Origin: Uranotaenia lowii
Taxonomy: Eukaryota > Arthropoda > Insecta > Diptera > Culicidae
Length of the DNA: 64,000 nt
Direction of reading: 5' to 3'
Assembly: GCF_029784155.1 (NCBI RefSeq)
Contig: NC_073692.1
Location: forward strand, 333,021,920-333,085,919
A program made the position numbers and the translations under genes. This document shows positions 3,143 through 64,000 of the stretch, piece by piece; the stretch's first letter is position 1; the number at the start of each line of letters is the position of its first letter. The notes below the pieces were generated by a model. That model was given only the letters and a program-made list of their open reading frames with translations. It was not told where the DNA came from and ran no database searches.

Positions 3143-3245
3143 CAGCACGATTTCAACCGCACCAACTATGTACATGGCCGCCGCCAGGGTTGTCCCGGTG
3201 TAGAACAATATCCCGACAGCGCCACCGAATTCGGGCCCGAGCGAT
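3143..3245 (-). CDS. kcc: K+/Cl- cotransporter (SLC12/KCC) internal exon
   Basis: Internal exon of 103 nt on the minus strand. It encodes [18 protein letters not shown] then [16 protein letters not shown], nearly identical to the loop and third membrane helix of animal KCC transporters (kazachoc in flies). These proteins carry K+ and Cl- out of cells across the plasma membrane by electroneutral symport. The acceptor is a good pyrimidine tract ending CAG (3246-3248) and the donor is GTAAGT (3137-3142). The first base completes an Arg codon split in phase 2, matching the donor phase of the exon at 30677-30759, whose last residues are YFMIS plus AG. The two exons join without missing residues compared with known KCC proteins. 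The downstream exon is not in the window. Identification rests on family memory but is strong. Confidence 0.93.
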
Positions 3246-14640: not shown

Positions 14641-15945
14641 TCTATATATATAAAAAGCAATTTCTGTATGTTTGTTTGTTTGTTTGTTTGTTTGTTTGTT
14701 TGTTTGTTTGTCCTCTATAGACTCAGCCGTCTTAAGAGCTAGAGGTCTGAAATTTGGCATGGATGCTCATTAGGACCAAGAAGGATGAAAAATGTTTTTA
14801 GATTTTCGGATGACCCCTTCTGAAGGGGGTCGTCCATAGAAGACAAATATTGTTTTCGCGATATTGACGTTATTTTTTGTCGGATCGTGTTGAAAATTTG
14901 CACATGAGTGTTTTGAAAGACGAGAAATTGATTTCAGATGTCAGATTATGTGTAAGGGATCGTCCAAAGGGGTCGTCCATATTAACTGTTCGCTGTTTTT
15001 GCGATATTGACGTTATTATACATCGTATTTAAATGAAAATTGGTACGCGATAGTTTTGAGTGACGTGCAATCGATTTGAGGTATCTAATTCAATGTAAGG
15101 GGCCGGCGAAAGGGGTCGTCCATATTAAATTTTCAGTATCTTAGTGATATTGACGTTTTTATACATCGGATTGGGATGAAAATTTGCACTTAGGAGTTAT
15201 TGGGGACAAAAAACTGATTTTACTTATCCAAACTAAAATCAGGGGTCGACCAAAGGGGTCGTCCATATTAACAATTCACTGTTGATGCGATATTGTCGTT
15301 ATTATACATCGTATTCAGATGAAAATTGGTACACGAGAGTTTTGAGAGACGAGTAATGGATTTCAGGTATTAAATTCAGTGTACGGGGCCGGCAAAGGGG
15401 GTCGTCCATATTAACCCTTCAATATTTTTGCTATATCGTTGATATTATACATCGGATTGGGATGAAAATTTGCACAATTTTCAGGGACAGGCAATCGATT
15501 TCAAATGTCAAATATTTTTCCAGGGGTCGACGAAAGGGGTCGTCCATATAGATTAATTGTTCACGGTTTTTTGCAATATTGACGTTATTATGCAACAGAT
15601 TGCTTTGAAAATTGGCACACGGGAGTTTTGAGGGAAGGGCAATCGATTTTAGATATCAAATAAGAAGCCACCGAAAAGGGTTTAACTTTTTGGCAATAAT
15701 TGCGTTGTTATGTAACGATTGAGTCTAAATTTATACACGGTTTTTATTGGCACGGTCAATTGATTCCTGATTTCAAATTTAGTAGCAGACGACAGACAAA
15801 ATGATCGTCCAATATTTTTGCAATTATTACTTAACAGTGAATTCAAAAGTGCATTTGGAAAATGCTTGGCAATTGACTTTCATGCAAACTGTTCATGACA
15901 TATTCCAAGTTACAAGCGAAACGGAGTTCGTATGGGATCAGCTAG
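14641..15945 (+). mobile_element. Non-autonomous Helitron 1
   Basis: Begins TCTATATATATAAAAAGC after a host A and ends ATCAGCTAG before a T. This is the TC...CTRR structure and A/T target of Helitrons. A (GTTT)n tract lies at about 14667-14711. The body is a degenerate tandem array with a 143-bp period: the anchor TGAAAAT falls at 14891, 15034, 15177, 15320, 15463 and 15606. No Rep/helicase gene. It abuts Helitron 2 directly. Confidence 0.8.
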
Positions 15946-17827
15946 TCTATATATATAAAAAGCAATTATCTGTATGTTTGTTTGTTTGTTTGTTTGTTTG
16001 TTTGTTTGTTTGTTTGTTTGTTTGTTTGTTTGTTTGTTTGTCCTCTATAGACTCAGCCGTCTTAAGAGCTAGAGGTCTGAAATTTGGCATGGATACCCAT
16101 TAGGACCAGGAAAGATGAAAAATGTTTTCAGATTTTTGGATGACCCCTTCTGAAAGGGGTCGTCCATACAAGACAAATAATGTTTTCGCGATATTGACGT
16201 TATTTTTCGTCCGATTGTGTTGAAAATTTGCACATGAGATTTTTAAAAGACGGATTGTGATGAAAATTTGCACATGAGTGTTTTGAGAGACGAGCAATCG
16301 ATTACAGTTATCAAATTTAGGGTTAAGGGTCGGCAAAAGGGGTCGTCCATATCAAATGATTAATGTTTTTGCGATATTGGCTTTATTTTACATTGGATTG
16401 TGATGAAAATTTGCACATGAGTGTTTTGAGAGACGAGCAATCAATTACAGTTATCAAATTTTGGGTCAGGGGTCGGCCAAAGGGGTCGTCTATATTCTCT
16501 GATTAATGTATTTGCGATATTGGCGTTATTTCACACCAGATTGTGATGAAAATTTGCACATGAGTGTTTTGAGAGACGAACAATCGATTACAGTTATCAA
16601 ATTTAGGGTCAAAGGTGGGCAAAAGGGGTTGCCAATATTCACTGATTAATGGTTTTGCGATATTGGCGTTATTGTACATCGGATTGTGATGAAAATTTGC
16701 ACATGAGTGTTTTGAGAGACGAGCAATCGATTACAGTTATCAAATTTAGGGTTAGGGGTCGGCCAAAGGGGTCGTCCATATTCACTGATTAATTTTTTTG
16801 CGATATTGACGTTATTATAGACCGGATTGTGATGAAAATTAGCCCATGAGTGTTTTGAGGAACGAGCAATCGATTTCAAGTTTTGAATGTGGATCAGAAG
16901 TCAGCTGAAGGAGTCGTCCATACCCAACTTTAATGATTTTGCGATTTTGACGTTATTCTTGGATTGGATTGGATTGAGATGAAAATTTCCGCATAGGAGT
17001 TTTGAGGGACGCTTCCAGGTTTCAAATCATAACTCAGGGGTCAGGGGTTATTATCTGTTCACTGTTTTAACGATATTCTCTTGATTGAGCATAGAATTGT
17101 AATGAAAATTGACACATGGGAGTTTAACAGAAAAGATAATTGATTTCAGATGTCAAGTTTTGAATCGTGGTCAAAAAAAGGCCGTACATGTCAGTTGCTC
17201 ACTGTTTTCGCGATATTGTCGTGATCATGCATCGGATTGAGATGAAAATGTTCAGATGAGGGTTTTAAACTATGAGCAATTGACTCCAGGTAGCATGTTC
17301 CGTGTCAAGGGTCGGCGAAAGGGGCGTCTATATTCACTGATCACTGTTTTCAAGTTCCTGACGTAATTTTACATATATGTAATTTGAAAAGAAAAAATGG
17401 CACAAGGGAGTTTTGAGGAGCGTCAAATTGGTTTCAATTATCGAATTTCGGGTCATGGGACAGAAAAAGGGGGTTTCATTGAAAGTTCATTGTTTTGTGC
17501 AATAATTTTGTTGGAGGCAGTTAATTGATACCAATTTAAGTGTGAAGGTCAAGCAAAAGAGTCGTGCACACAAACAAATAGTACATGTTTCTGCCATAAT
17601 GTCTAGATTTTGCAACTGATCGAGAAGAAAACACTCTCACATAAATTTTAATAAAAAGCCAATCAACCGTTTAATTTGAATTTCAAGTAAAAGTAATAGT
17701 AGCGACTTTAAGCACCGTTGAATTTTTTCCCCAAAATTGTCGAAAGAATGTTTCGAATACATTTTCTAAACTCATTTTTACGTACCAATGATTTAAAGTG
17801 AAACGAAGTTCGTACGGGATCCGCTAG
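15946..17827 (+). mobile_element. Non-autonomous Helitron 2
   Basis: Begins TCTATATATATAAAAAGC immediately after the CTAG of Helitron 1 and ends GGGATCCGCTAG before a host T. The (GTTT)n tract is at about 15975-16040. A tandem array with a 143-bp period is clear at 16261, 16404, 16547, 16690 and 16833 (anchor TGAAAAT). It becomes irregular (147, 123, 140) towards the 3' end. No coding gene. Short open frames over the GTTT tract are chance. Confidence 0.82.
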
Positions 17828-20448: not shown

Positions 20449-23400
20449 ATGCGGCTTCCGCCAGCTAAGTCCAAGATGGCAGCCCCATCGCGGGATAGGG
20501 ACTTTAGGCTAACAACCTACTGCTCCCGATTTAAAATTGTTACGGAATCCGAAAGAAATGACCGACCTGGAACTTTGGCGACGACTTTTAGCATGAAAAC
20601 ACGGACACGAATTGGAACTTGGAATGTTTTAACCCTTGCCCAACAAGGCAAACTGGAACAACTTGCTAGAGAGGCTAGCCGCCTCAAGCTTGAAATTCTG
20701 GGACTGAGCGAAGTCCGTTGGCCTAATACTGGAGAACACAAGACACAATCCGGGCAAGTCCTGCTTTACTCTGGCATACGAGGAGAACATGCTACTCGGG
20801 AACGAGGAGTTGGTTTCCTGTTAAGCCCGCAGGCCTACGCGGCCCTCATTAGATGGGAACCTATAAACGAAAGAATAATCGTAGCCAGATTTAGAACACG
20901 GGTTAGAAACCTTACAATGGTCCAGTGTTATGCGCCAACTGACGTTGCCGACTTGCAGGAGAAAGAGCAGTTTTACAGTCAACTGAACAGCGTGGTTCAG
21001 AGAATTCCGAAGGGTGACATTCAAATCCATTTGGGCGACTTCAACGCAAAAATTGGCTCCGACAATCAGGACCTTGAGCGCATCATGGGGCGCCATGGCC
21101 TAGGACAGATGAGCGAAAACGGAGAGCTGTTTGTAGAATTTTGTGGCAACAACAACATGGTGATCGGTGGATCGCTCTTCCCCCATCGACCAGCACATAA
21201 GGTCACTTGGGTATCCCGAGATGGCCGAACAGAAAATCAAATTGACCACATCTGCATCAGCCGAAAATGGAGAAGGAGCCTTCTTGATGTCCGCAACAAG
21301 CGAAGCGCAGACATTGCATCTGACCATCACCTCGTCCTTGGCGAGATACGACTGAGAGTTGCACGTGTCCAACGGCGCGAGGAGAAAGTCGGGTGTCGAT
21401 ACGACGTCCGCCGGTTGGAGAATCCAGAGGTGAAAAGGGCATACGTTGAACAGCTAGAATCCCGAACCTCGGAGCTGCCGACAGACGGAACAGTCGAAGA
21501 ACAGTGGTGTGGAATCAAGAATGCCTTTATCACGACGAGCCATGGTACTCTCGGTAAAGTTTGTGGAAGAAGAAGTGAATGGATGTCGGATGAAACTTGG
21601 AGGATGGTCGATGATCGGAGAAAGGCGAAAGTCGGAATTGAGCAGGCATGTACCGGGTCAGCCAAAGCAGCCGCCCGCTTACGATATGCGGAGCTGGAAA
21701 AGGCAGTTAAACGAGCTTGTAGACGAGACAAGAGAGCCTGGACAAACTCCCTAGCCGAAGAGGGAGAAAGAGCCGCCGCCAATGGAGATATCCGATTACT
21801 TTATGACATCTCTCGCCGCCTCAGTGGTGCAAGGACTAATGCAAGAATGCCGCTAAAAGACCGAGCAGGTCAGTTATTGACCGATCGAACAGATCAGCTC
21901 AAACGATGGACTGAGCACTTCGAACAACTCTTCCGAGTCACGAATAGCGATGGCCAACAGAATCTGCAGCTCGAAGCGCCAACAGTAAGTCGCATAAATG
22001 GCGTCAACTCGGAAGCGCCTTCGCTGGCTGAAATAGAAGCGGCAATCAAAAACATGAAATCCAACAAAGCACCTGGGATCGATTGCATCCCTGCTGAAAT
22101 GCTGAAAGCCGACCCTGCCCTATCAGCACAAATGTTGCACCGTCTTTTCGCTGACATCTGGGATACTGCAACATTCCCGGCCGACTGGATGCAGGGTATC
22201 CTCGTAAAGGTCCCGAAGAAAGGAGACCTGACAGAGTGCGGTAACTGGCGAGGCATAACGTTGATCTGTACAACCCTCAAAGTACTCTGCAAAGTGATTC
22301 TGAACAGGATCCAGGAGAAAATAGACGCTACACTCCGACGGCAACAAGCTGGATTCCGATCTCGACGATCATGTGTGGACCACATCACTACGCTACGAAT
22401 CATACTGGAACAAATCAACGAACTCCAGGACTCTCTTCTGCTGGTGTTCGTTGATTTCGAAAAAGCATTTGACCGACTGAACCACGAAAACATCTGGGCG
22501 GCACTAAGGCGACGAGGGGTCCCAGAGAAACTAGTCCATCTCATCGAAGCACAGTATGAGGCATTTTCGTGCAAGGTCTTGCACGACGGTGTCTTGTCCG
22601 AACCAATCCCGGTAACTGCTGGAGTGAGACAAGGATGTATTTTATCACCGCTACTTTTTCTAATCGTAATGGATGAGATTCTGATTGGATCGATTGACTG
22701 TGCACCGAACCGAGGATTGCCGTGGAATCCTTCAACAATGGAGCAACTGAACGACCTTGACCTGGCTGACGATATTGTTTTGCTCGCCCAAACACAACCA
22801 GATATGCAGAGCAAACTCGACGACCTCACCGAAAGTTCCAAGGCAGCTGGTCTCAAAGTCAATGTCGGAAAGACCAAGTCGATGGAGATCAACACAGGAA
22901 ATCCCTCCAGTTTCATGGTAGCTGGGCAACAAGTTGAGAAAGTGGAATGCTTCCAGTATCTTGGTAGCCAGATTACGCCTGATGGTGGTACCAGAAAAGA
23001 CATCGAAACACGGATCAGAAAGGCCCGATTTGCGTTTGCGAGTCTCCGAAACATCTGGCGCTCACGCCAGATCTCTCTACGAACAAAAATCCGAATCTTC
23101 AACTCAAACGTCAAATCCGTATTGCTGTACGGGTGCGAAACTTGGTGCACATATGCGGTAACGACGCGAAAACTGCAAGTATTTGTAAACCGCTGCCTGC
23201 GGAATATCATCCGCGCTTGGTGGCCTGGCAACTGGATCTCGAATGAGGAACTACATCGCCGGTGTCATCAAAAGGCGCTAGAAATCGAGATTCGGGAACG
23301 TAAGTGGAGATGGATTGGGCACACGCTGCGAAGAGATGAAAACGAGATTTGCAGAGAGGCGCTAGATTGGAATCCAGAAGGTCATCGAAGAAGAGGCAGA

Positions 23401-23556
23401 CCCAGAAACTCGTGGCGGCGAAGCCTAGCCGCTGAAATCCGAACTGTCGACGAGAATCTTGACTGGGACCAGGTGAAGACGCTGGCTCCGGATCGTCAAC
23501 AGTGGAGGTCTTTTACCACGGCCCTATGCACCGGAGGATCGGCGCGGGATCATTAA
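20449..23556 (+). CDS. LINE endonuclease/reverse transcriptase, RTE-like
   Basis: A 1035-residue uninterrupted ORF. An APE-type endonuclease lies at about residues 50-305: IGTWNV at 55-60, LSEVRW at 86-91, GDFNAK near 196 and the catalytic SDHHLV near 291. It nicks the target DNA. The reverse transcriptase spans about 540-850: NWRGITL near 600, FVDFEKAFD near 667, RQGCILSPLLF near 727 and LADD near 772, which holds the catalytic aspartates. A C-terminal region follows with RKWRWIGHTLRR and RRRGRPRNSWRR. ATGs at 20449 and 20593 are both possible starts; the endonuclease begins just after the second. All key motifs look intact, so the protein could be active. Clade assignment to RTE or a close relative rests on endonuclease type, single ORF and tail. 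Confidence 0.9.
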   Translation: MRLPPAKSKMAAPSRDRDFRLTTYCSRFKIVTESERNDRPGTLATTFSMKTRTRIGTWNVLTLAQQGKLEQLAREASRLKLEILGLSEVRWPNTGEHKTQSGQVLLYSGIRGEHATRERGVGFLLSPQAYAALIRWEPINERIIVARFRTRVRNLTMVQCYAPTDVADLQEKEQFYSQLNSVVQRIPKGDIQIHLGDFNAKIGSDNQDLERIMGRHGLGQMSENGELFVEFCGNNNMVIGGSLFPHRPAHKVTWVSRDGRTENQIDHICISRKWRRSLLDVRNKRSADIASDHHLVLGEIRLRVARVQRREEKVGCRYDVRRLENPEVKRAYVEQLESRTSELPTDGTVEEQWCGIKNAFITTSHGTLGKVCGRRSEWMSDETWRMVDDRRKAKVGIEQACTGSAKAAARLRYAELEKAVKRACRRDKRAWTNSLAEEGERAAANGDIRLLYDISRRLSGARTNARMPLKDRAGQLLTDRTDQLKRWTEHFEQLFRVTNSDGQQNLQLEAPTVSRINGVNSEAPSLAEIEAAIKNMKSNKAPGIDCIPAEMLKADPALSAQMLHRLFADIWDTATFPADWMQGILVKVPKKGDLTECGNWRGITLICTTLKVLCKVILNRIQEKIDATLRRQQAGFRSRRSCVDHITTLRIILEQINELQDSLLLVFVDFEKAFDRLNHENIWAALRRRGVPEKLVHLIEAQYEAFSCKVLHDGVLSEPIPVTAGVRQGCILSPLLFLIVMDEILIGSIDCAPNRGLPWNPSTMEQLNDLDLADDIVLLAQTQPDMQSKLDDLTESSKAAGLKVNVGKTKSMEINTGNPSSFMVAGQQVEKVECFQYLGSQITPDGGTRKDIETRIRKARFAFASLRNIWRSRQISLRTKIRIFNSNVKSVLLYGCETWCTYAVTTRKLQVFVNRCLRNIIRAWWPGNWISNEELHRRCHQKALEIEIRERKWRWIGHTLRRDENEICREALDWNPEGHRRRGRPRNSWRRSLAAEIRTVDENLDWDQVKTLAPDRQQWRSFTTALCTGGSARDH

Positions 23557-23582
23557 GTAAGTAAGTAAGTTTTATATTTTGG

Positions 23583-46044: not shown

Positions 46045-47038
46045 CACAGAGAACAGACATCGGGCCCCGAACAAAAATTTGTTGAAAACGTGTGTGAGAA
46101 TACCCACCTAAGTTTCAAACCAAATTCGTAAGTGGACTAACATCCATAAGATGTCGCTACCAGTACACATATTTTTCCATTTTTTCGACACGCTTAGAAA
46201 TTAATACTCATAGCTTATCTCAAATGAGGCCATTGCAATGTATGAGAGTAATACAACTTTTTGTGTAATAAATTTTAAGAACATCTTGATTTTCAAAACT
46301 GCAAATCATATTTCAATCATACTTTAATCGCTGGCATATGTCCCAGCATATGTTCTATATTGTTCAATAAATATTGGCGCTGAATTGAAAGTTGAATTCC
46401 AAGTTTTAAAGTATGTCTGTCAGTAAATAGTTTTCTAGAGCAGAGAATGTGAACATAAATGTTATAATTGTTAATTATGGGTCGGTATTCCGGTGGATGT
46501 TATCTTGTAACTCATGTTTATTAATAACTTTATTCATTTCTACTGATTACTAACCCTGAGTTACAAGTCCTCATCTATCGATCTCAGGTAACATCAACCA
46601 GAATATCGAGCCATAGTTTACAATTATAACATTTATGTTCACATTTTCTGTTCTAGAAAACTGTTAACTGATAGTAAAATCCCAACACATACTTTAACAC
46701 TTGGAATTCAACTTTCAATTCAGCGCCAAAATTGTTTGAACAATATGGGGCATATGACAGCGTTCAATTGTGATTGAAATATGATTTACATTTTTTTTAA
46801 GTCATGATGTTTTAAAATTTATTACATCAAAATTTGTGTTACTGTCATACATTGCACTGGCCTCCTTTGAGATAAGCGATGAGTATTAATTTCTAAGCGT
46901 GTCGAAAAAACGAAAACAAAAATAGGTGTACCGGTAGCGACATCTTATGTATGTTAGTCCACTTACGCATTTGGTTTGAAACTTAGGTTGGTATTCACTC
47001 ACACGTGTTGAGCTCCAGCTCGAACTCTGTTCTCTGTG
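46045..47038. mobile_element. Foldback MITE, almost one long palindrome
   Basis: Flanked by a 7-bp duplication ATAAAAT (46038-46044 and 47039-47045). The ends are CACAGAGAACAGA inverted repeats. The whole left half (to about 46517) reappears inverted in the right half (from about 46558), leaving a loop of about 40 bp. No transposase. Open frames over it are chance. Confidence 0.85.
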
Positions 47039-54085: not shown

Positions 54086-54495
54086 TTTTCGGACGCTCTG
54101 TCAAGTGGTTTTTAAGGTTGAATGAAAAAGTTAATCGACTTTAATTTTTGGGCATCACGTTCGCCATCTATAGTGTATACTATGAACCACCCTTTTTCGA
54201 ATCAAGACTATTTTTGAAAACGGTTTCCGTTTCCTAAAGCTCTTCCTTCTAAATTACACAAAATTTTATGTTCGGTCAAATTTATGACAAATATAGCCGA
54301 TTGTCTTTCTTCGGCACAAAAATGACATATTTGATTTTTTATCACTTCACCGCAGATATCACGTAATGGCACGATTTGAGATCCAACTAAAATAAAGATT
54401 CAACTTTTTAAAAAATTTTTGAGTGCTTTGCAGAAAAAAACAGTCGTGTTTGGAAGCAGTTTTCTTTGTATATTCATCAATTCGTCGTTTCAATC

Positions 54496-55495
54496 AATGC
54501 AAGGTCTTGCACGATGGTGTCTTGTCCGAACCAATCCCGGTAACTGCTGGAGTGAGACAAGGATGTATCTTATCACCGCTACTTTTCCTCATCGTAATGG
54601 ATGAGATTCTGACTGGATCGATCGACTGTGCACCGAACCGAGGATTGCCGTGGAATCCTTTAACAATGGAGCAACTGAACGACCTTGACCTGGCTGACGA
54701 TATTGTTTTGCTCGCCCAAACACAACCGGACATGCAGAGCAAACTCGACGACCTCACCGAAAGTTCCAAGGCAGCTGGTCTCAAAGTCAATGTCGGAAAG
54801 ACCAAGTCAATGGAGATCAATACAGGAAATCCCTCCAGTTTCATGGTAGCTGGGCAACAAGTTGAGAAAGTGGAGTGCTTCCAGTATCTTGGTAGCCAGA
54901 TAACGCCTGATGGTGGTACCAGGAAAGACATCGAAACCCGGATCAGAAAGGCCCGATTTGCGTTTGCGAGTCTCCGAAACATCTGGCGATCACGTCAGAT
55001 CTCTCTACGAACAAAAATCCGAATCTTCAACTCAAACGTCAAATCCGTATTGCTGTACGGGTGCGAAACTTGGTGCACATATGCGGTGACGACGCGAAAA
55101 CTGCAAGTATTTGTAAACCGCTGCCTGCGGAACATCATCCGCGCTTGGTGGCCTGGCAACTGGATCTCGAATGAGGAACTACATCGCCGGTGTCATCAAA
55201 AGGCGCTAGAAATCGAGATTCGGGAACGTAAGTGGAGATGGATTGGGCACACGCTGCGAAGAGATGAAAACGAGATTTGCAGAGAGGCGCTAGATTGGAA
55301 TCCAGAAGGTCATCGAAGAAGAGGCAGACCCAGAAATTCGTGGCGGCGAAGCCTAGCCGCTGAAATCCGAATTGTCGACGAGAATCTTGACTGGGACCAG
55401 GTGAAGACGCTGGCTCCGGATCGTCAACAGTGGAGGTCTTTTACCACGGCCCTATGCACCGGAGGATCGGCGCGGGATCATTAAGTAAGTAAGTA
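54496..55495 (+). mobile_element. 5'-truncated RTE-like LINE, second copy
   Basis: Matches 22570-23568 of the full-length element almost completely, including the TAAG tail. Flanked by an exact 11-bp duplication TCGTTTCAATC (54485-54495 and 55496-55506). Truncated inside the reverse transcriptase. Confidence 0.95.
54498..55484 (+). pseudogene. 3' part of LINE reverse transcriptase (RTE-like)
   Basis: Corresponds to residues from about 708 to the end of the 1035-residue protein at 20449-23556. Only about three amino-acid differences were noted by eye (for example I to T after MDEIL, and T to I near AEIR). The RQGCILSPLLF and LADD motifs remain. The endonuclease and the first RT motifs are gone, so it cannot function. 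An open frame continues upstream of 54498 only by chance into flanking DNA. Confidence 0.9.
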
Positions 55496-57322: not shown

Positions 57323-57327
57323 AATAC

Positions 57328-57899
57328 TGTTGGGGTGGGATTACCTTGCCTGGTATCTGGTGGATTGCTGGACTGTATGGATGCCTTCTCAATGGGGTCC
57401 TGTGCCTTGGAATTGGTGCCTGGAGATTGGTTCCTCGATGTTGGTTGGGTTGAGCCTTTCTCAACTGTTTATTTCCCAATTTTAGGACGTTCCGGACAAA
57501 ACAAATTAACGCGACGACTTATAAAAAACACGACACTAATAATTACACATTTATTCAAAACAAACTACATAATATATTTAAACTTTAACGATAAACGGGA
57601 ATGGTTTTGACGAGTGTTTAGGGCAAGTGATAGCACACGAATGGTGAAATTATATAATGCAAAATGGTGCTAACGAGTTACTTTCTTCAAAGCCCGAAAA
57701 GTACGTAGGTGCATTCTTCAAAGTGGGGTAGTTGGGTGGTGGGTGGATGGTAAATTTACTGTCTCTCTCTCGCTGTCATCTGTGGCTGTCGGTTGTAGTG
57801 GTGTGGTTCCAGTGTGGTGCGGATTCCGTCCATAGCGTTCAGCTGATTGGCCGTGAGGGGTAAGTGGATGCCTTTCTGGTGTTCTCATCGTAATAGACA
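57328..57899 (-). repeat. BEL 3' LTR
   Basis: 572 bp, TGTCTATTACG...CCCACCCCAACA in element orientation, with an AATAAA near its middle (57550-57555 on the plus strand as TTTATT). Same length and apparently the same sequence as 63371-63942. Short frames over it are not genes. Confidence 0.95.
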
Positions 57900-57979
57900 T
57901 CTTCGCCCGCGCTGAAATTGCCAGAATTTCTGAAACGAAATAAGAAAAGACCCTTCCGAACACACATGATCACTCAATC

Positions 57980-59840
57980 AACCTTCGAGGTGCCTTATTG
58001 TCGTCGGTGGTTTCGCTGTCCAGTGGCTGACATTCCGACGGTAGCAAACAGAGTTTTTCGACGGGCCGCTTCAGAACTCCGCTAGATGTCTTCAGTGTAA
58101 CTACTCTGACGACTCCATCTTCTCCCGGATGCAGCTGCTAGATACGACCTAATCTCCAACGCATCGGAGGTGTATTCTCATTTTTCAAAACGACGAGTTG
58201 ACCGACCTTGATCTCTACAGCACGTTTCCAGCGTTTGAATCTTCCTTGAAGTTGTGATAGGTACTCATTATGCCACCGTGCCCAAAAAAAATGTAGTTTC
58301 TGCTGCATAAGTTGATATTGTTTCAGTTGTCCTGGTTTTTTCTCGGTGAAATCTCGATCTGGTAGTTGTTGAAGCGGTCTTCCAGCTATGAAATGACCAG
58401 GAGTTAACGGCTCCAGATCGTTGGGGTCTTCCGACAATGGGGTAATCGGCCTTGAATTTAAACATGCCTCCACTTGTATTAGCAGCGTGTTGAAGTCTTC
58501 GTACGAAACCGCGTTGTCTCCTAGGACCTTCAGGAGATGTATCTTGGCAGACTTCACAGCAGCTTCCCATAAACCTCCGAAATGGGGAGCGGCAGGAGGG
58601 TTAAAGTGCCATTGGATCCCATGTTCAGCACATTCCTTAGTGATCTGCTGGTGATGCTGCCGGTCTCGAAGTTTCGCTAATAATTCCTTCAGCTGGTTCC
58701 GTGCGCCGACGAAATTAGTACCATTATCGGAAAACAAATCGGTAGGTATTGAGCGTCTTCCAATGAATCTACGCAGAGCCTGAAGAAATTTCTCCGTCGA
58801 CAAATCGGACACCAATTCTAGATGAATCGCCTTTGTACAGAGACATATGAAGAGGGCTACATAAGCCTTAAGTGGCGCTCGACGTGGTCCCTGGCGAATG
58901 TATACAGGCCCGAAATAGTCAATTCCAGTTCGTGCGAACGGCGGTGCTGCGGTTACACGGGCTCTTGGAAGTTCTCCCATAAACTGCTCGATGGCCTTCG
59001 GTTTCGTTCTGTGGCAGCGTAAACACTGATGGACAATATGACGAACGTAGCTGCGTCCTCCAAGAGGCCAGTAGTGGAGCCTGACATTACTCAGAAGAAG
59101 TTGCGGTGCTGCATGTAGTAACCGCTTATGATATGCTTCTAGTAGAAGCTTGGTGAAGTGGTGACGCACTGGAAGTGCTATGGGGTGTCTTGCTCCTTCA
59201 GGTATTTGTGCATATTTTAGTCTTCCTCCAAGACGAATAAGGTTATCGGATTCTAGAATTGGATTAAAGTAACGCATAGGAGAACCTCGATGAACTTCTT
59301 CACCCTTAGAAAGTTGTTTCCATTCTTCACTAAACGCTGATTGTTGAATTAAACGGATTATAGTGTATTCAGCTTCCTTCAGCTCGGGAGTAGTTAAAAA
59401 TCCAGTCGGTGTGGGTTCAAGTTTCCGAAAATGTTTAATAAGCCGCATCCAATACGCTGTTTTTCGAATCAGACCCGAAAACGAGGAGAATTTTTCCACA
59501 TACCAATCGATAAATCTCTGATTCTCTGTTGTCGCTACATTCGCTGCCTTTCGTTTCAATTCGCTGGTGACTGCCTCTGTTTCCATCCGTATAGGTTGTA
59601 CTGGCCAACTCGATGTCTCCTGCTTTAACCATGGTGGGCCTTCCCACCACAGGCTGGTGGATTCGATCTGCTCTGGTAATAAACCACGAGAGACCAAGTC
59701 TGCTGGATTTTGTTCCCCTGGGACGTGCCTCCACGATTGATTCTCGGTGATTGTTTGGATTTTGGAGACGCGATTAGCAACATATGTTGACCACGTTGTT
59801 GGAAGAGATTTTAGCCATCGCAAGACGTTCGCTTTCCTCG
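57980..59840 (-). pseudogene. BEL pol: RNase H end and integrase
   Basis: Open from the junction near 59840 down to a premature TAG at 58135-58137. Coding-like sequence continues in frame to about 57980 (HPGEDGVVRVVTLKT). It starts inside the RNase H domain (LRWLKSLPTTW, WRHVPGEQNPADLVSRG). The integrase follows: an H2C2 zinc region (HAAPQLLL...CLRCHRTKP), then catalytic D in TGIDYFGPVY, D in DLFSDNGTNFVGA and E in FGGLWEAAVKSAK. The integrase would insert element DNA into the genome. Residues encoded upstream of 59840 are antisense of the inverted protease block, not part of the protein. The RT is missing, so this is a broken pol. Confidence 0.9.
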
Positions 59841-60578
59841 GTACTTCTAGCAACAGCCGTAGTTTTGGTAGAGGACCAAACTGGAGGCAGTTATCCCGCG
59901 AGAGCCTTACTAGACTCTGGCTCTGAATGTAACTTGATGGCTGAACATCTATGTCAAAAACTCGGAATAAAAAGAAGGCATTCAAACTTATCGGTAATTG
60001 GAATTGGACAGGCCAACACTCGAATCAAACATCAGGTCACTGCAACCGTCAAGTCGCGGAACTGTCAGTACAAACAACAAATGGATTTCTTGGTTATGGC
60101 AAAGGTTACCGCGGATTTACCAACAACAGATATCAACATTTCAACCTGGAGATTACCCGAAGGAATCAAACTGGCTGATTCCGAATTTTTCGCTTCGAAA
60201 TCCATTGATCTTATCCTTGGCATCCAACACTTCTTCGAATTCTTCCAATCTGGTCAACGAATTGCGTTAGGAAATGGGCTACCGGTCATCACTGAATCCG
60301 TATTTGGATGGATAATATCTGGAGTGACAGAAAACAGGCAACAAATATCGAAAACTATCTGCAACACTGCAAGTTCAATGGATCTGGACGAATACCTAAC
60401 CCGGTTTTGGACATGCGAAGAGATGGGGTCTGTTCGCAATTATTCGCCAGAAGAAGCCCTATGTTAGGAGCAGTTTGCAAGCACGGTCCGCAGAGAAGAA
60501 GACGGGCGATACACAGTTTCATTACCAAAGGATGGAGACGCAACGTCTCGACTGGGCGAGTCGAGAAAAATGGCTGTA
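59841..60578 (+). pseudogene. BEL pol: protease and start of RT, inverted
   Basis: Plus-strand coding, opposite to gag and integrase of the same element. Contains the aspartic protease active site LLDSGSECNLMAEHL, then GIGQANTRIKHQV and FGWIISGV, the usual order for the N-terminal pol of BEL elements. A TAG at 60465-60467 interrupts the frame; coding-like sequence continues (REEDGRYTVSLPKDGD, LGESRKMAV) to about 60578, where a tRNA-like sequence begins. In place, the protease would cut the Gag-Pol polyprotein. As arranged here it cannot be expressed from the element promoter. Confidence 0.9.
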
Positions 60579-60615
60579 TCCATAGGTCGCTGGTTCAATC
60601 CGGCTCGAAGGACCA
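60579..60615 (+). other. tRNA-Tyr 3' half with CCA (captured primer sequence)
   Basis: 37 nt matching animal tRNA-Tyr from about position 39 to the 3' CCA: TCCATAGGTCGCTGG, a T loop reduced to TTCAAT, then CCGGCTCGAAGGA and CCA at 60613-60615. It is not a tRNA gene because the 5' half is absent and CCA is encoded. It joins through AA (60616-60617) to an LTR end, the arrangement of a tRNA primer extended into minus-strand strong-stop DNA. The usual T loop would have one more A. The tRNA identity is from memory of fly and human tRNA-Tyr. Confidence 0.8.
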
Positions 60616-60617
60616 AA

Positions 60618-60738
60618 TGTTGAGGTGGGATTACCTTGCCTGGTATCTGGTGGATTGCTGGACTGTATGGATGCCTTCTCAATGGGGTCCTGTGCCTTGG
60701 AATTGGTGCATGGAGATTGGTTCCTCGATGTTGGTTGG
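60618..60738 (-). repeat. Internal BEL LTR end fragment (121 bp)
   Basis: Matches the terminal 121 bp of the LTRs at 57328 and 63371 with two substitutions. It breaks off after GTTGGTTGG, where gag sequence starts. Gag-frame residues encoded here (EEPISMHQFQ) are LTR-derived. Confidence 0.92.
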
Positions 60739-62037
60739 CACTGTTCCTGAAGTAGAAGTACCTGGATTGTCCGAAGTATGTCTTATCGCTCCTGAGGTGG
60801 ATGGTGTTGGTGCGTCTGGCCGAAAACAAATCAACGTGTGATGTTTTCCCTTACAGTTGTGACATACGTATTTAGAAGAACATTCCGAAGCCACATGTCC
60901 TCGCCGAAAGCAGTTTCTGCATAGAGAGTTCGTACGAATCATCTTATCTCTTTCCGAAACCGATAACCGTTTGAAAGACTGGCACATGAAGAGTGGGTGA
61001 AAATCAGAGCAGGCAACGCATCGACCTTTGGGAAATTGGGTCGCACTGTGGCTAGTGCGGATTCCGAGTGGTTTCCTGTTGTACTCGGGTCGTCCTTCGG
61101 AGACCTTGCTAGGTAGTGAGCCGAGAACAGAGATCCTTTTTTGAATGAACTGCGTTAAATCCGAGATTTTATCCCGATCATTGCCGGCCGTGTGCTCTTC
61201 CCATGCGCGACGCGTTGTTGGGTCCAACCTAGTACATAAAATCTCCAGTAACAGCAAGTCCTTGTACTCATCGGCATTCACAAGTTGATCAAGGGTTTGT
61301 ACGACACGTTCGAAAGCTTCTAGTAAAGATTGCAGCTCCATTACGGATTCCTTGGTGACACCTGGGAGTTTCAGCAGTGCATTAACCTGCCTACGTTTCA
61401 GCAGCTTACTGTCGTTATACCGTTTCATTAAACATTCCCATGCGATTGAGTAATTTGCACTGGTTATAGCGAGAGGGTCGACCAACTTCTTAGCCTCTCC
61501 AGCTAAACAGCCCTTGAGATAGTGAAACTTCTCAATATCTGGTAAGTCCGCCTTCGTATGTATTAACGACATGTAAAGATCCCGGAAACTAAGCCATTCA
61601 TCCACATTTCCATCAAACTGCTGAAGTTTTATTTGAGGAAGCTTCACGTGTTCAACTGTTGGTTGCAAAGAGGAATCCATCATTCTTGTAGACTGGTGAA
61701 CGGTAGAAGACTCTTGCTCAATCTCCTTGACTCGTTCAAGCATGGCAGCCTTCGCATCGTAGTAGGTTTCTCCAAAATCGATACGAATTTGCGACGGTGA
61801 TGTGTTTGGCATTGTTACGTACTCCTCATGGGTTTCGATTTCAAGCAGTGTTTCATTAACCTTCTCCCACAATTCGTCTATTTTCGCCAACCGCACCTGG
61901 ATTTTCTCAACCGAAGTCACCTCAGCAAGAGTGCTCGAAAACGCTGTAATCGTCTTGAACATCTCAAGTTGCGCCCGAAGTTTCGTTTGTAGATTCTTCA
62001 CCGACGCCCCCTTGGTAGATGAAGTAGTAGCTGGCAT
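60679..62037 (-). CDS. BEL Gag
   Basis: 452-residue frame starting at ATG 62035-62037. An N-terminal helical region is followed by the DUF1759-type core (KLPQIKLQQFDGNVDEWLSF, IEKFHYLKGCLAGEAKKL). After that come a Cys-rich segment and two zinc knuckles (CRNCFRRGHVASEC and CHNCKGKHHTLIC). Gag forms the particle that packages the element RNA in the cytoplasm. The last ~20 codons, below 60739, come from the fused LTR fragment, so the natural end of gag is replaced. Otherwise it looks intact. Confidence 0.9.
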   Translation of the reverse strand: MPATTSSTKGASVKNLQTKLRAQLEMFKTITAFSSTLAEVTSVEKIQVRLAKIDELWEKVNETLLEIETHEEYVTMPNTSPSQIRIDFGETYYDAKAAMLERVKEIEQESSTVHQSTRMMDSSLQPTVEHVKLPQIKLQQFDGNVDEWLSFRDLYMSLIHTKADLPDIEKFHYLKGCLAGEAKKLVDPLAITSANYSIAWECLMKRYNDSKLLKRRQVNALLKLPGVTKESVMELQSLLEAFERVVQTLDQLVNADEYKDLLLLEILCTRLDPTTRRAWEEHTAGNDRDKISDLTQFIQKRISVLGSLPSKVSEGRPEYNRKPLGIRTSHSATQFPKGRCVACSDFHPLFMCQSFKRLSVSERDKMIRTNSLCRNCFRRGHVASECSSKYVCHNCKGKHHTLICFRPDAPTPSTSGAIRHTSDNPGTSTSGTVPTNIEEPISMHQFQGTGPH

Positions 62038-63339
62038 GGTAGTTGAACTTATTCACCGGTCACAGATTGAATGATTGACAGAACAGGATATGTGGGTGTA
62101 AGTAATTGAATGTTGTCTAGCTTCGGCTGTGAACATACACTGTAGAGCTCACTTACTTTTGAAAAAATTTAGCTGCGCAACCTCTACAGGTATGTTGAAG
62201 TTTCAGAAAACCAGGTAATTGATGACAAATGCAATTTCCACTCGGTTATCAATTGATTATGTTGTTGGCCACGTGCGTTGAAGGGAACGAGAATTGTTGG
62301 ATGTAGAATTCCGCAAAATTTTGCTTCGGTAGGACATATACGTGTGTAATTTACCTGACCGAAAAAACTGTAGCGCAATTTAAATTTTATCATTCGCAGT
62401 TAAAAACTGCAATTCCAAAATTAAATTGATAATTCCTCAAATCGTACTTCTTACAGCCCCTCGGAAGCTCAATGATGGTTGATGATCATTAGGTTGACAG
62501 TGTGTTCATATAGGGAAACATAAACTTCAATGTAGTATCCGCGTTCGCTTCGACAGAACATATACTAAAAGTGTAGTGCCTAAATTTCACTTACTTTACA
62601 GAAAAACTCGTTGTTCTGCTGTCGAAGTTACGTCGCGATGTATTCGGAAATAGTATCGGTTGTGTTACGGGTGAAAATTACTAGAAAGGTGCCGAATCAG
62701 TGTATTTATTTCTATCGGCAATCTCCAGAAATTTTCCTCAATGGACCACACTGCGCGGTGATGTGTGTGACCTCTTCAACACTTTTTATGATCGGTGTAT
62801 TAGTTATCCAAATGTTGATGATGCAACTCGGAAAGTGCATCCGAAGTTTGTTTACAAACAGGCGAAATAAAAACATGCGATGTAGGATCAAAATTTTCCA
62901 AACTACGGCTGGACGTATACTAGGTTCGTGTATTATTTACCTGACAAAACAGTACAAAGTACCCGCCAATAGGCTTTGACTGTTTTGGGTGATGATGGTG
63001 ATGATCGTGATCAGAAAGTTGTCGGTTTGGTCAGGAATCAGCCGCCGAAAACCATTTGCCGTGGTAAGTTGTGTTCGAGATCCTCCTCAGCAAGCCGGAA
63101 TGGTAGTGTGCAAATGATTAGGTGCTAAACGTGCAGTTTAGAATGCCCAAACGACGATAGCTGGTAATCTTATAAGAATTCCGTGCGATGTTTTCCTTGG
63201 CTGAGTGATGACCTCGATGGCGAAGATGTGTAGTGCTGAATCGTGATGAGTGTCGTGTTTTGTGATGGCGCCAAAAAATCGCTTGCCTTGCCTTTAGATG
63301 AAGCTTGCCTCGCTTCGATGGGCCCAGAAAGTGAAACTT
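62038..63339 (-). other. BEL leader between primer-binding site and gag
   Basis: About 1.3 kb without a recognised domain. This is long for a BEL leader. A plus-strand frame at 62611-62979 and others are not recognisable. Confidence 0.5.
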
Positions 63340-63368
63340 GCTGGCCGAAATCCGGTTCGAAGTGACCA
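63340..63368 (-). other. BEL primer-binding site, extended tRNA-Tyr match
   Basis: On the plus strand it reads GCTGG, three changed bases, AAATCCGG, then TCGAAG and GACCA with small differences. This resembles the T arm and 3' end of tRNA-Tyr over about 29 nt, longer than the usual 18. Two bases (63369-63370) separate it from the LTR, as is normal. Confidence 0.65.
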
Positions 63369-63370
63369 AA

Positions 63371-63942
63371 TGTTGGGGTGGGATTACCTTGCCTGGTATC
63401 TGGTGGATTGCTGGACTGTATGGATGCCTTCTCAATGGGGTCCTGTGCCTTGGAATTGGTGCCTGGAGATTGGTTCCTCGATGTTGGTTGGGTTGAGCCT
63501 TTCTCAACTGTTTATTTCCCAATTTTAGGACGTTCCGGACAAAACAAATTAACGCGACGACTTATAAAAAACACGACACTAATAATTACACATTTATTCA
63601 AAACAAACTACATAATATATTTAAACTTTAACGATAAACGGGAATGGTTTTGACGAGTGTTTAGGGCAAGTGATAGCACACGAATGGTGAAATTATATAA
63701 TGCAAAATGGTGCTAACGAGTTACTTTCTTCAAAGCCCGAAAAGTACGTAGGTGCATTCTTCAAAGTGGGGTAGTTGGGTGGTGGGTGGATGGTAAATTT
63801 ACTGTCTCTCTCTCGCTGTCATCTGTGGCTGTCGGTTGTAGTGGTGTGGTTCCAGTGTGGTGCGGATTCCGTCCATAGCGTTCAGCTGATTGGCCGTGAG
63901 GGGTAAGTGGATGCCTTTCTGGTGTTCTCATCGTAATAGACA
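63371..63942 (-). repeat. BEL 5' LTR
   Basis: 572 bp, same as 57328-57899. It carries the promoter and start of transcription of the element, in minus orientation. Confidence 0.95.
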
Positions 63943-64000
63943 AATACCTTAGATTTTAGATACCCTACAAATTAAAGTCGTGTAGGTGATCGTGTCATTT

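Follow-up and report, generated by a model that had tools for sequence, protein, structure and literature searches.

A mature tRNA-Tyr copy in a BEL element of Uranotaenia lowii as a probable record of reverse transcription beyond position 58 of the primer

The BEL element and its tRNA-Tyr tract

The window, i.e., the whole analysed stretch of 64,000 nucleotides (positions 333021920–333085919 of C2), comes from a genome of 1.078 Gb, in which three sequences are very large (216, 437 and 370 Mb). A BEL-type element is located on its minus strand (57328–63942) and houses a tRNA-Tyr tract. The features of the element are as follows:

57323–57327, no strand: target-site duplication AATAC, left copy (5 bp)
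57328–57899, minus strand: 3' LTR (572 bp; 100% identity to the 5' copy)
58138–59827, minus strand: pol from the RNase H side to integrase, normal orientation (Integrase_H2C2, DUF5641, rve just below the cut-off)
59816–59827, no strand: 12-nt match shared by the inverted pol block, at its end, and the RNase H side (10/12 identical, inverted-block version kept)
59816–60575, plus strand: inverted pol block comprising aspartic protease and the first part of the domain after it (maps to locus L025 from 3148 down to ~2389)
60574–60575, plus strand: CT common to pol and C32-U33 of tRNA-Tyr (2-nt microhomology)
60576–60615, plus strand: mature tRNA-Tyr copied from G34 through the terminal CCA (without G37-A38 and one A of A57–A59)
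60616–60617, plus strand: AA spacer from primer to LTR end (same spacer at the element's own primer-binding site)
60618–60738, plus strand: minus-strand LTR end, U5 side, 121 nt (two differences from the element's own LTRs)
60726–60738, no strand: 13-nt match of U5 and gag at their junction (11/13 identical, U5 version kept)
60739–62052, minus strand: gag with DUF1759 and, by eye, a zinc knuckle (truncated at its 3' end by the junction)
63350–63368, minus strand: the element's own primer-binding site (compared with tRNA-Tyr, C65 to T and one inserted T)
63371–63942, minus strand: 5' LTR (572 bp)
63943–63947, no strand: target-site duplication AATAC, right copy

The element was attributed to BEL/Pao by its two LTRs with a 5-bp duplication, DUF1759 gag, protease and integrase with DUF5641, and tRNA primer-binding site. 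A domain profile search identified DUF1759 of gag as PF03564 (E 1.6e-38), the aspartic protease as PF13650 (24.6 bits, cut-off 24.3) and, on the integrase side, PF17921 (30.1, cut-off 25.5) and the DUF5641 tail PF18701 (59, cut-off 23.1); rve scored 31.7, below its cut-off of 32.6. The window copy is broken, with the protease block inverted at 59816–60575 and the pol stretch between this block and the RNase H side missing. A complete reverse transcriptase between protease and RNase H is absent from this copy, in which the region from 1033 to ~2389 of L025 is lacking. The primer-binding site in the window is tRNA-Tyr-like with two differences, and that of L025 is exact tRNA-Tyr as far as it was read. 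Both LTRs are identical, and therefore the insertion is recent.

Elsewhere in the window, a reverse-transcriptase-like open frame was recognised by eye at 54423–55484, where positions 54498–55495 are 98% identical to 22570–23567. Dense overlapping direct repeats, 71–99% alike, occupy 14641–17390, and an imperfect palindrome of ~920 bp, which matches its reverse complement at 80% identity, lies at 46085–47009.

Read along the plus strand, which is the direction of the minus-strand cDNA, the rearranged part of the element consists of inverted pol, the tRNA-Tyr copy, AA, 121 nt of LTR end and gag in normal orientation. The earlier note on this DNA had reported 37 nt of the 3' half of tRNA-Tyr with CCA, AA and 121 bp of LTR end, and the sequence confirms it: positions 60579–60615 correspond to T39 to A76 of tRNA-Tyr, CCA included, minus one A of the A57–A59 run. 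The tRNA-Tyr genes of the same genome match 60579–60615, in agreement with the proposal that tRNA-Tyr is the primer. In these genes an intron follows position 37 or 38 and the CCA is lacking, and their sequence is otherwise as in the copy; the copy has the CCA and no intron, and therefore its template was mature tRNA. Note that ARAGORN called no tRNA in the window and called the intron-bearing tRNA-Tyr genes tRNA-Leu or left them unassigned, so that the genes were read by eye and by pattern instead.

The arrangement of LTR end, spacer and primer tRNA beyond position 58 is the layout of an over-extended plus-strand strong-stop DNA. With the AA found also at the element's own primer-binding site, it bears out the earlier suggestion of a primer extended by reverse transcriptase, and alignment to tRNA-Tyr likewise upholds the claim that copying went beyond A58 with a base lost in the A57–A59 run. 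The losses in the window fall at 57–59 and at 37–38.

Five sibling copies of the element were fetched, four of which hold the internal region and one (L029) only LTR sequence. The insert is absent from all four siblings with an internal region, which speaks strongly against the segment being normal sequence of the family, and mapping on the siblings identified the piece beyond the tract as pol in the opposite orientation, as had been proposed. In the four siblings pol reads ...ATGGCT|TTACAG, and in the window ...ATGGCT|GTATCC. The sibling sequence departs after CT, and therefore GTA (60576–60578, anticodon 34–36) is tRNA-derived, while CT (60574–60575) fits both; an assignment of GTA to pol had been considered and was dropped once the siblings were aligned. 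Thus, the tract (60576–60615) is slightly longer than first noted and lacks G37-A38. A stop next to position 37, which the earlier note had assumed, is not supported, as position 37 was crossed with the loss of G37-A38 and the copy ends at 34 (or 32). The same 2-nt loss was found in L010/L032, L017/L041 and L061, and by eye in L107.

Junctions and the proposed order of events

U5 and gag have 13 positions in common at their junction, of which 11 are identical; U5 letters stand at both differences, and both are wobble-compatible with gag RNA. A growing strand retains the letters that it has already copied. Therefore, U5 was copied first and gag second, which is the minus-strand direction. The far end of the inverted block has a match of 12 positions, 10 of them identical, in which the letters are those of the antisense protease; this strand was therefore copied before the RNase H side. 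On L025 the inverted block extends to position 3148 and gag starts at 3144, which places the two jumps at a single site. Only 2 nt are shared at the tRNA/pol junction. As to formation in particles or by later DNA repair, two junctions keep the growing-strand versions and the third has the 2 nt only. The same order was observed in L011/L033, where the tRNA tract is followed by an antisense protease block, 131 nt of which recur inverted, at 97% identity, in the adjoining sense block.

Judging from the sequence, the simplest order of events would be that two minus-strand pieces met on one RNA, that the plus strand then ran through gag, U5 and tRNA, and that a foldback or jump led through pol. Inside a BEL virus-like particle, tRNA-Tyr would sit at the primer-binding site and prime minus-strand DNA, which after 121 nt would jump from U5 to gag on RNA and copy gag down to the primer-binding site. 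Plus-strand synthesis would then pass through gag and U5 and enter the tRNA, still attached at that end. Synthesis would not stop at the putative m1A58, losing one base there, skipping G37-A38 and reaching the anticodon. The over-long end, unable to pair for normal transfer, would be joined to pol in the opposite orientation; the pol piece would run to the site of the gag jump and return, at the RNase H side, to the minus strand, giving a piece with two good LTRs that could integrate. The chances that this detailed chain of jumps is right in all its parts appear to us evenly balanced.

The tRNA copy may also be real and the chimera a product of DNA end joining of separate cDNA pieces, or of a later DNA rearrangement, instead of template switching. 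We consider this a serious, though lesser, possibility. The short tRNA/pol junction speaks in its favour, and so do the many tRNA-Lys tracts elsewhere in the genome that end exactly at nt 1 and pass into unrelated sequence, like a joined run-off end. Against it stand the 13-nt and 12-nt matches, which keep the growing-strand version with wobble-compatible differences, and the identical LTRs and the intact 5-bp duplication argue against a rearrangement after integration. At the tRNA/pol junction itself, with only 2 nt in common, end joining seems as likely as template switching.

Copies of tRNA-Tyr and tRNA-Lys across the genome

The genome was searched with the pattern GGTTCANATCCGGCTCGAAGGACCAAA, allowing up to three mismatches, which gave 148 matches (reversed control: 0). 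Seventy of the 148 were examined, namely 30 fetched with the search and 40 picked from the printed list. The alignment to the tRNA reached position 39 or further in 21 of these 70 (including L098, a tRNA gene), compared with a chance level of 0.3 on average for shuffled flanks and 1 for reversed flanks. These 21 without the tRNA gene, together with L015 and the window, make up a set of 22 tracts, in which the window was counted as starting at 38 since only the sequence from 60576 onwards was aligned; five of the tracts come from one LTR family, and the set is partly non-independent. Eight of the 22 tracts start at 26–29 and 14 at 35–39. Position 58 was changed in 14/22 (T 11, G 1, C 1, loss 1) and position 37 in 9 of the 11 aligned tracts that cover it (T 6, loss 3). 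At the other positions 31/845 were changed, a figure from the 22 tracts that excludes positions 49, 65, 37, 38 and 58. The set includes low-scoring alignments such as L064 and L069, and with a score of at least 53 the counts are 13/21 at position 58 and 9/11 at position 37.

A second pattern, GGTCRCTGGTTCNNATCCGGYTCGAAGGACCA, which is open at positions 57 and 58, gave 59 matches (reversed control: 0). By their last three letters these were split into 29 with CCA or one mismatch to CCA and 30 without. A letter other than A was found at position 58 in 17/29 of the CCA-tailed copies (T 14, G 2, C 1) and in 0/30 of the tRNA-Tyr genes (Fisher p 1.9e-7), where the 30 gene-type matches include some near-duplicates. 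The retention of A58 in 12/29 CCA-type copies and in 8/22 tracts counts against the read-through reading proposed here. Among them, L013/L038 keep A58 and have no LTR-like end after CCA; they were counted as unchanged in both tallies and may represent a tRNA-gene relic.

Ordinary decay or variant tRNA genes could in principle account for the changes at 58 and 37, and a second tRNA-Tyr isodecoder (A49/T65, four gene-type matches) does explain the variation of the tracts at positions 49 and 65. All 30 gene-type matches, the isodecoder included, have A57 and A58, however, and the low rate of change elsewhere in the tRNA-Tyr tracts differs sharply from the counts at 58 and 37, which makes this explanation very improbable.

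On the far side of the tRNA-Tyr tract, L012/L030 and L014/L042 run into sense protease, L033 runs into antisense and then sense protease, and L010/L032 return into U5 and the primer-binding site. The search for a partner LTR of L009, L010, L012 and L014 covered ~6 kb more on the internal side (for L014, 5 kb) and found none, so that these loci may be less than whole elements. Separately, L052 is a tRNA-Tyr tract with T58 whose CCA side adjoins gag-coding sequence, with no LTR end; priming inside gag is perhaps the cause.

The tRNA-Lys search used a pattern based on the Drosophila sequence, with CCA and an open position 58, and gave 61 matches (reversed control: 0), including three inverted pairs that look like duplicates. 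Position 58 was G in 24, T in 23, C in 3 and A in 11, i.e., changed in 50/61 relative to A, presumably the letter of the gene; among the 61 matches there was no clear tRNA-Lys gene without CCA. Each of the other positions was changed in at most 5/61. When 25 of the 61 tracts were examined, 14 began exactly at the first base of the tRNA, position 58 was changed in 21/25, and the other positions in 33/1708. The CCA is mostly followed by 0 to 2 bases and then by TG, as at an LTR end (exceptions are, e.g., L125 and L127), and L130 returns to its own LTR.

Several single loci have a structure of their own. L110/L137 form a palindrome of LTR end, complete tRNA-Lys complement, tRNA-Lys from ~nt 24 and LTR end. 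In L145 and L148 the LTR-like stretch after CCA stops matching related loci ~243 and 224 nt on, respectively, where other sequence follows; this stretch perhaps has the full strong-stop length. Beyond ~243 nt the sequence of L145 resembles gypsy RNase H by eye, from which we guess that the tRNA-Lys elements are of the Ty3/gypsy type.

A further possibility is that the extended tRNA match is inherited family sequence, such as a long primer-binding site, and not an event in this copy. Some families do have a tRNA-like leader at the primer-binding site, as does the element in the window, where 63340–63353 reads GCTGGCCGAAATCC compared with GCTGGTTCAAATCC of tRNA-Tyr; this leader resembles the over-extension sequence described for lentiviruses. 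However, tract and rearrangement are both absent from the four siblings, loci of other LTR families differ on the far side of the tract, and in the tRNA-Lys loci of one LTR family the common stretch begins at the first base of the tRNA. Inherited sequence is therefore very improbable.

It is hardly credible that the segment is a tRNA-Tyr gene, a pseudogene or a tRNA-derived repeat that landed beside LTR sequence: the 37 nt are close to tRNA-Tyr genes, but the copy differs from these in its CCA, missing intron and AA spacer as at a primer-binding site, and the genes show none of the changes at 58. A junction made by the assembly is just as hard to believe, since, although the data consisted of a single assembly, three junctions with matches typical of strand transfer lie between intact LTRs and a target duplication, and the same kind of junction occurs at many places.

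A class of read-through copies of tRNA-Tyr is well supported; a wider class that includes tRNA-Lys is strongly suggested, and repeated read-through with tRNA-Lys is very likely. The read-through event described by the earlier note is well supported in the window and is not unique, being one of a class with similar copies elsewhere in the genome.

In the minus-strand direction, the U5 of the element contains TGGACTGTA, identical to the anticodon arm (28–36) of tRNA-Tyr, at 63412–63420 and also at 57369–57377 and 60659–60667. At least 9 nt of tRNA-Tyr 1–58 were found within the first 100 nt of U5 in 8/42 LTR clusters (antisense control 0, shuffling 0.7), in a survey from which 12/71 loci were dropped for having no LTR-like TG. 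In other families U5 contains tRNA 2–15. From its sequence, the tRNA-like stretch of U5 looks like a further point at which the RNA meets the primer.

Interpretation and comparison with known systems

The tract in the window is very probably a read-through copy of the primer tRNA. The tRNA copies of both kinds are best read as evidence that reverse transcriptases of LTR retrotransposons have passed position 58 of the primer tRNA, misreading the putative m1A58 and m1G37, and that the over-long ends would then have been joined elsewhere by steps such as those proposed above. The tRNA copy, its losses, the junctions, their direction at the two longer matches and their absence from siblings are read directly from the sequence, whereas we infer that the attached tRNA served as template, that the positions concerned were modified, and how exactly the tRNA end came to be joined to pol.

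Whether m1A58 is the plus-strand stop in living cells has been debated for decades, mostly with HIV. Fixed copies show what follows under natural conditions if the stop fails, namely which base is inserted, where the next stop lies and what becomes of the over-long end. They also reveal directly which tRNA primes an element family, and germ-line tRNA modification may become readable from the genome sequence alone. On a broader view, which we put a little short of an even chance, the genome might be a natural primer-extension record: it would hold many independent chromosomal copies of primer tRNAs of at least two types, in which base changes and end points make germ-line modifications (m1A58, m1G37, a block near G26) legible. 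In that case m1A58 would be bypassed as a regular by-product, with structural change of LTR elements as the consequence, and the tRNA-like stretches of U5 may have been captured in this way and kept as a second primer contact.

A search by title and start of abstract, with subscription journals mostly outside its reach, found no report of LTR retrotransposons whose over-extended primer tRNA is preserved as copies in a genome. A close likeness is the over-extended plus-strand strong-stop DNA of HIV-1, where, as here, synthesis continues past m1A58 into the primer tRNA that is still attached (PMC13191261; PMC1785368). According to the accessible part of a review, HIV plus strands stop at m1A58, psi55, m5U54 or ms2t6A37 and, on unmodified tRNA, extend as far as the 5' end; TRMT6/61A mutant cells contain longer plus-strand products (PMC13191261). 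Reverse transcriptase was able to reach A37 in vitro; in the same source, as far as accessible, HIV with an unmodifiable A58U tRNA left no extra tRNA sequence in integrated proviruses, which counts against our reading (PMC1785368). The HIV-1 products are described as short-lived DNA, in vitro or in mutant cells (PMC13191261; PMC1785368), whereas the copies reported here are fixed in a genome, belong to LTR retrotransposons, carry base changes at putatively modified positions and record the subsequent jump.

In another case, an HIV provirus had tRNA-Gly fused to its 3' LTR (PMC12220202). As in the window, a reverse-transcribed mature CCA tRNA stands beside an LTR and is tied to a rearrangement; however, tRNA-Gly is not the primer of HIV and, in the accessible text, self-priming was proposed, whereas here the primer tRNA itself occupies the primer position (PMC12220202). 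The Helenus TRIMs also have tRNA-derived sequence in LTR elements, and some fungal families use spliced tRNA-Tyr as primer (PMC10886601). In the part of that work available, the tRNA-like sequence of Helenus is a promoter within the LTR and is inherited, in contrast to the tRNA in the window, which lies outside the LTR end, has a CCA tail and is absent from siblings (PMC10886601). Finally, m2,2G26, m1G37 and m1A58 leave strong mutation signatures upon reverse transcription of tRNA in tRNA-seq, i.e., reverse transcriptase errors at the same tRNA positions as here (PMC9943672). Those signatures, in the accessible description, are made in the laboratory (PMC9943672), whereas the changes reported here would be the work of retrotransposon enzymes and are preserved in chromosomal DNA.
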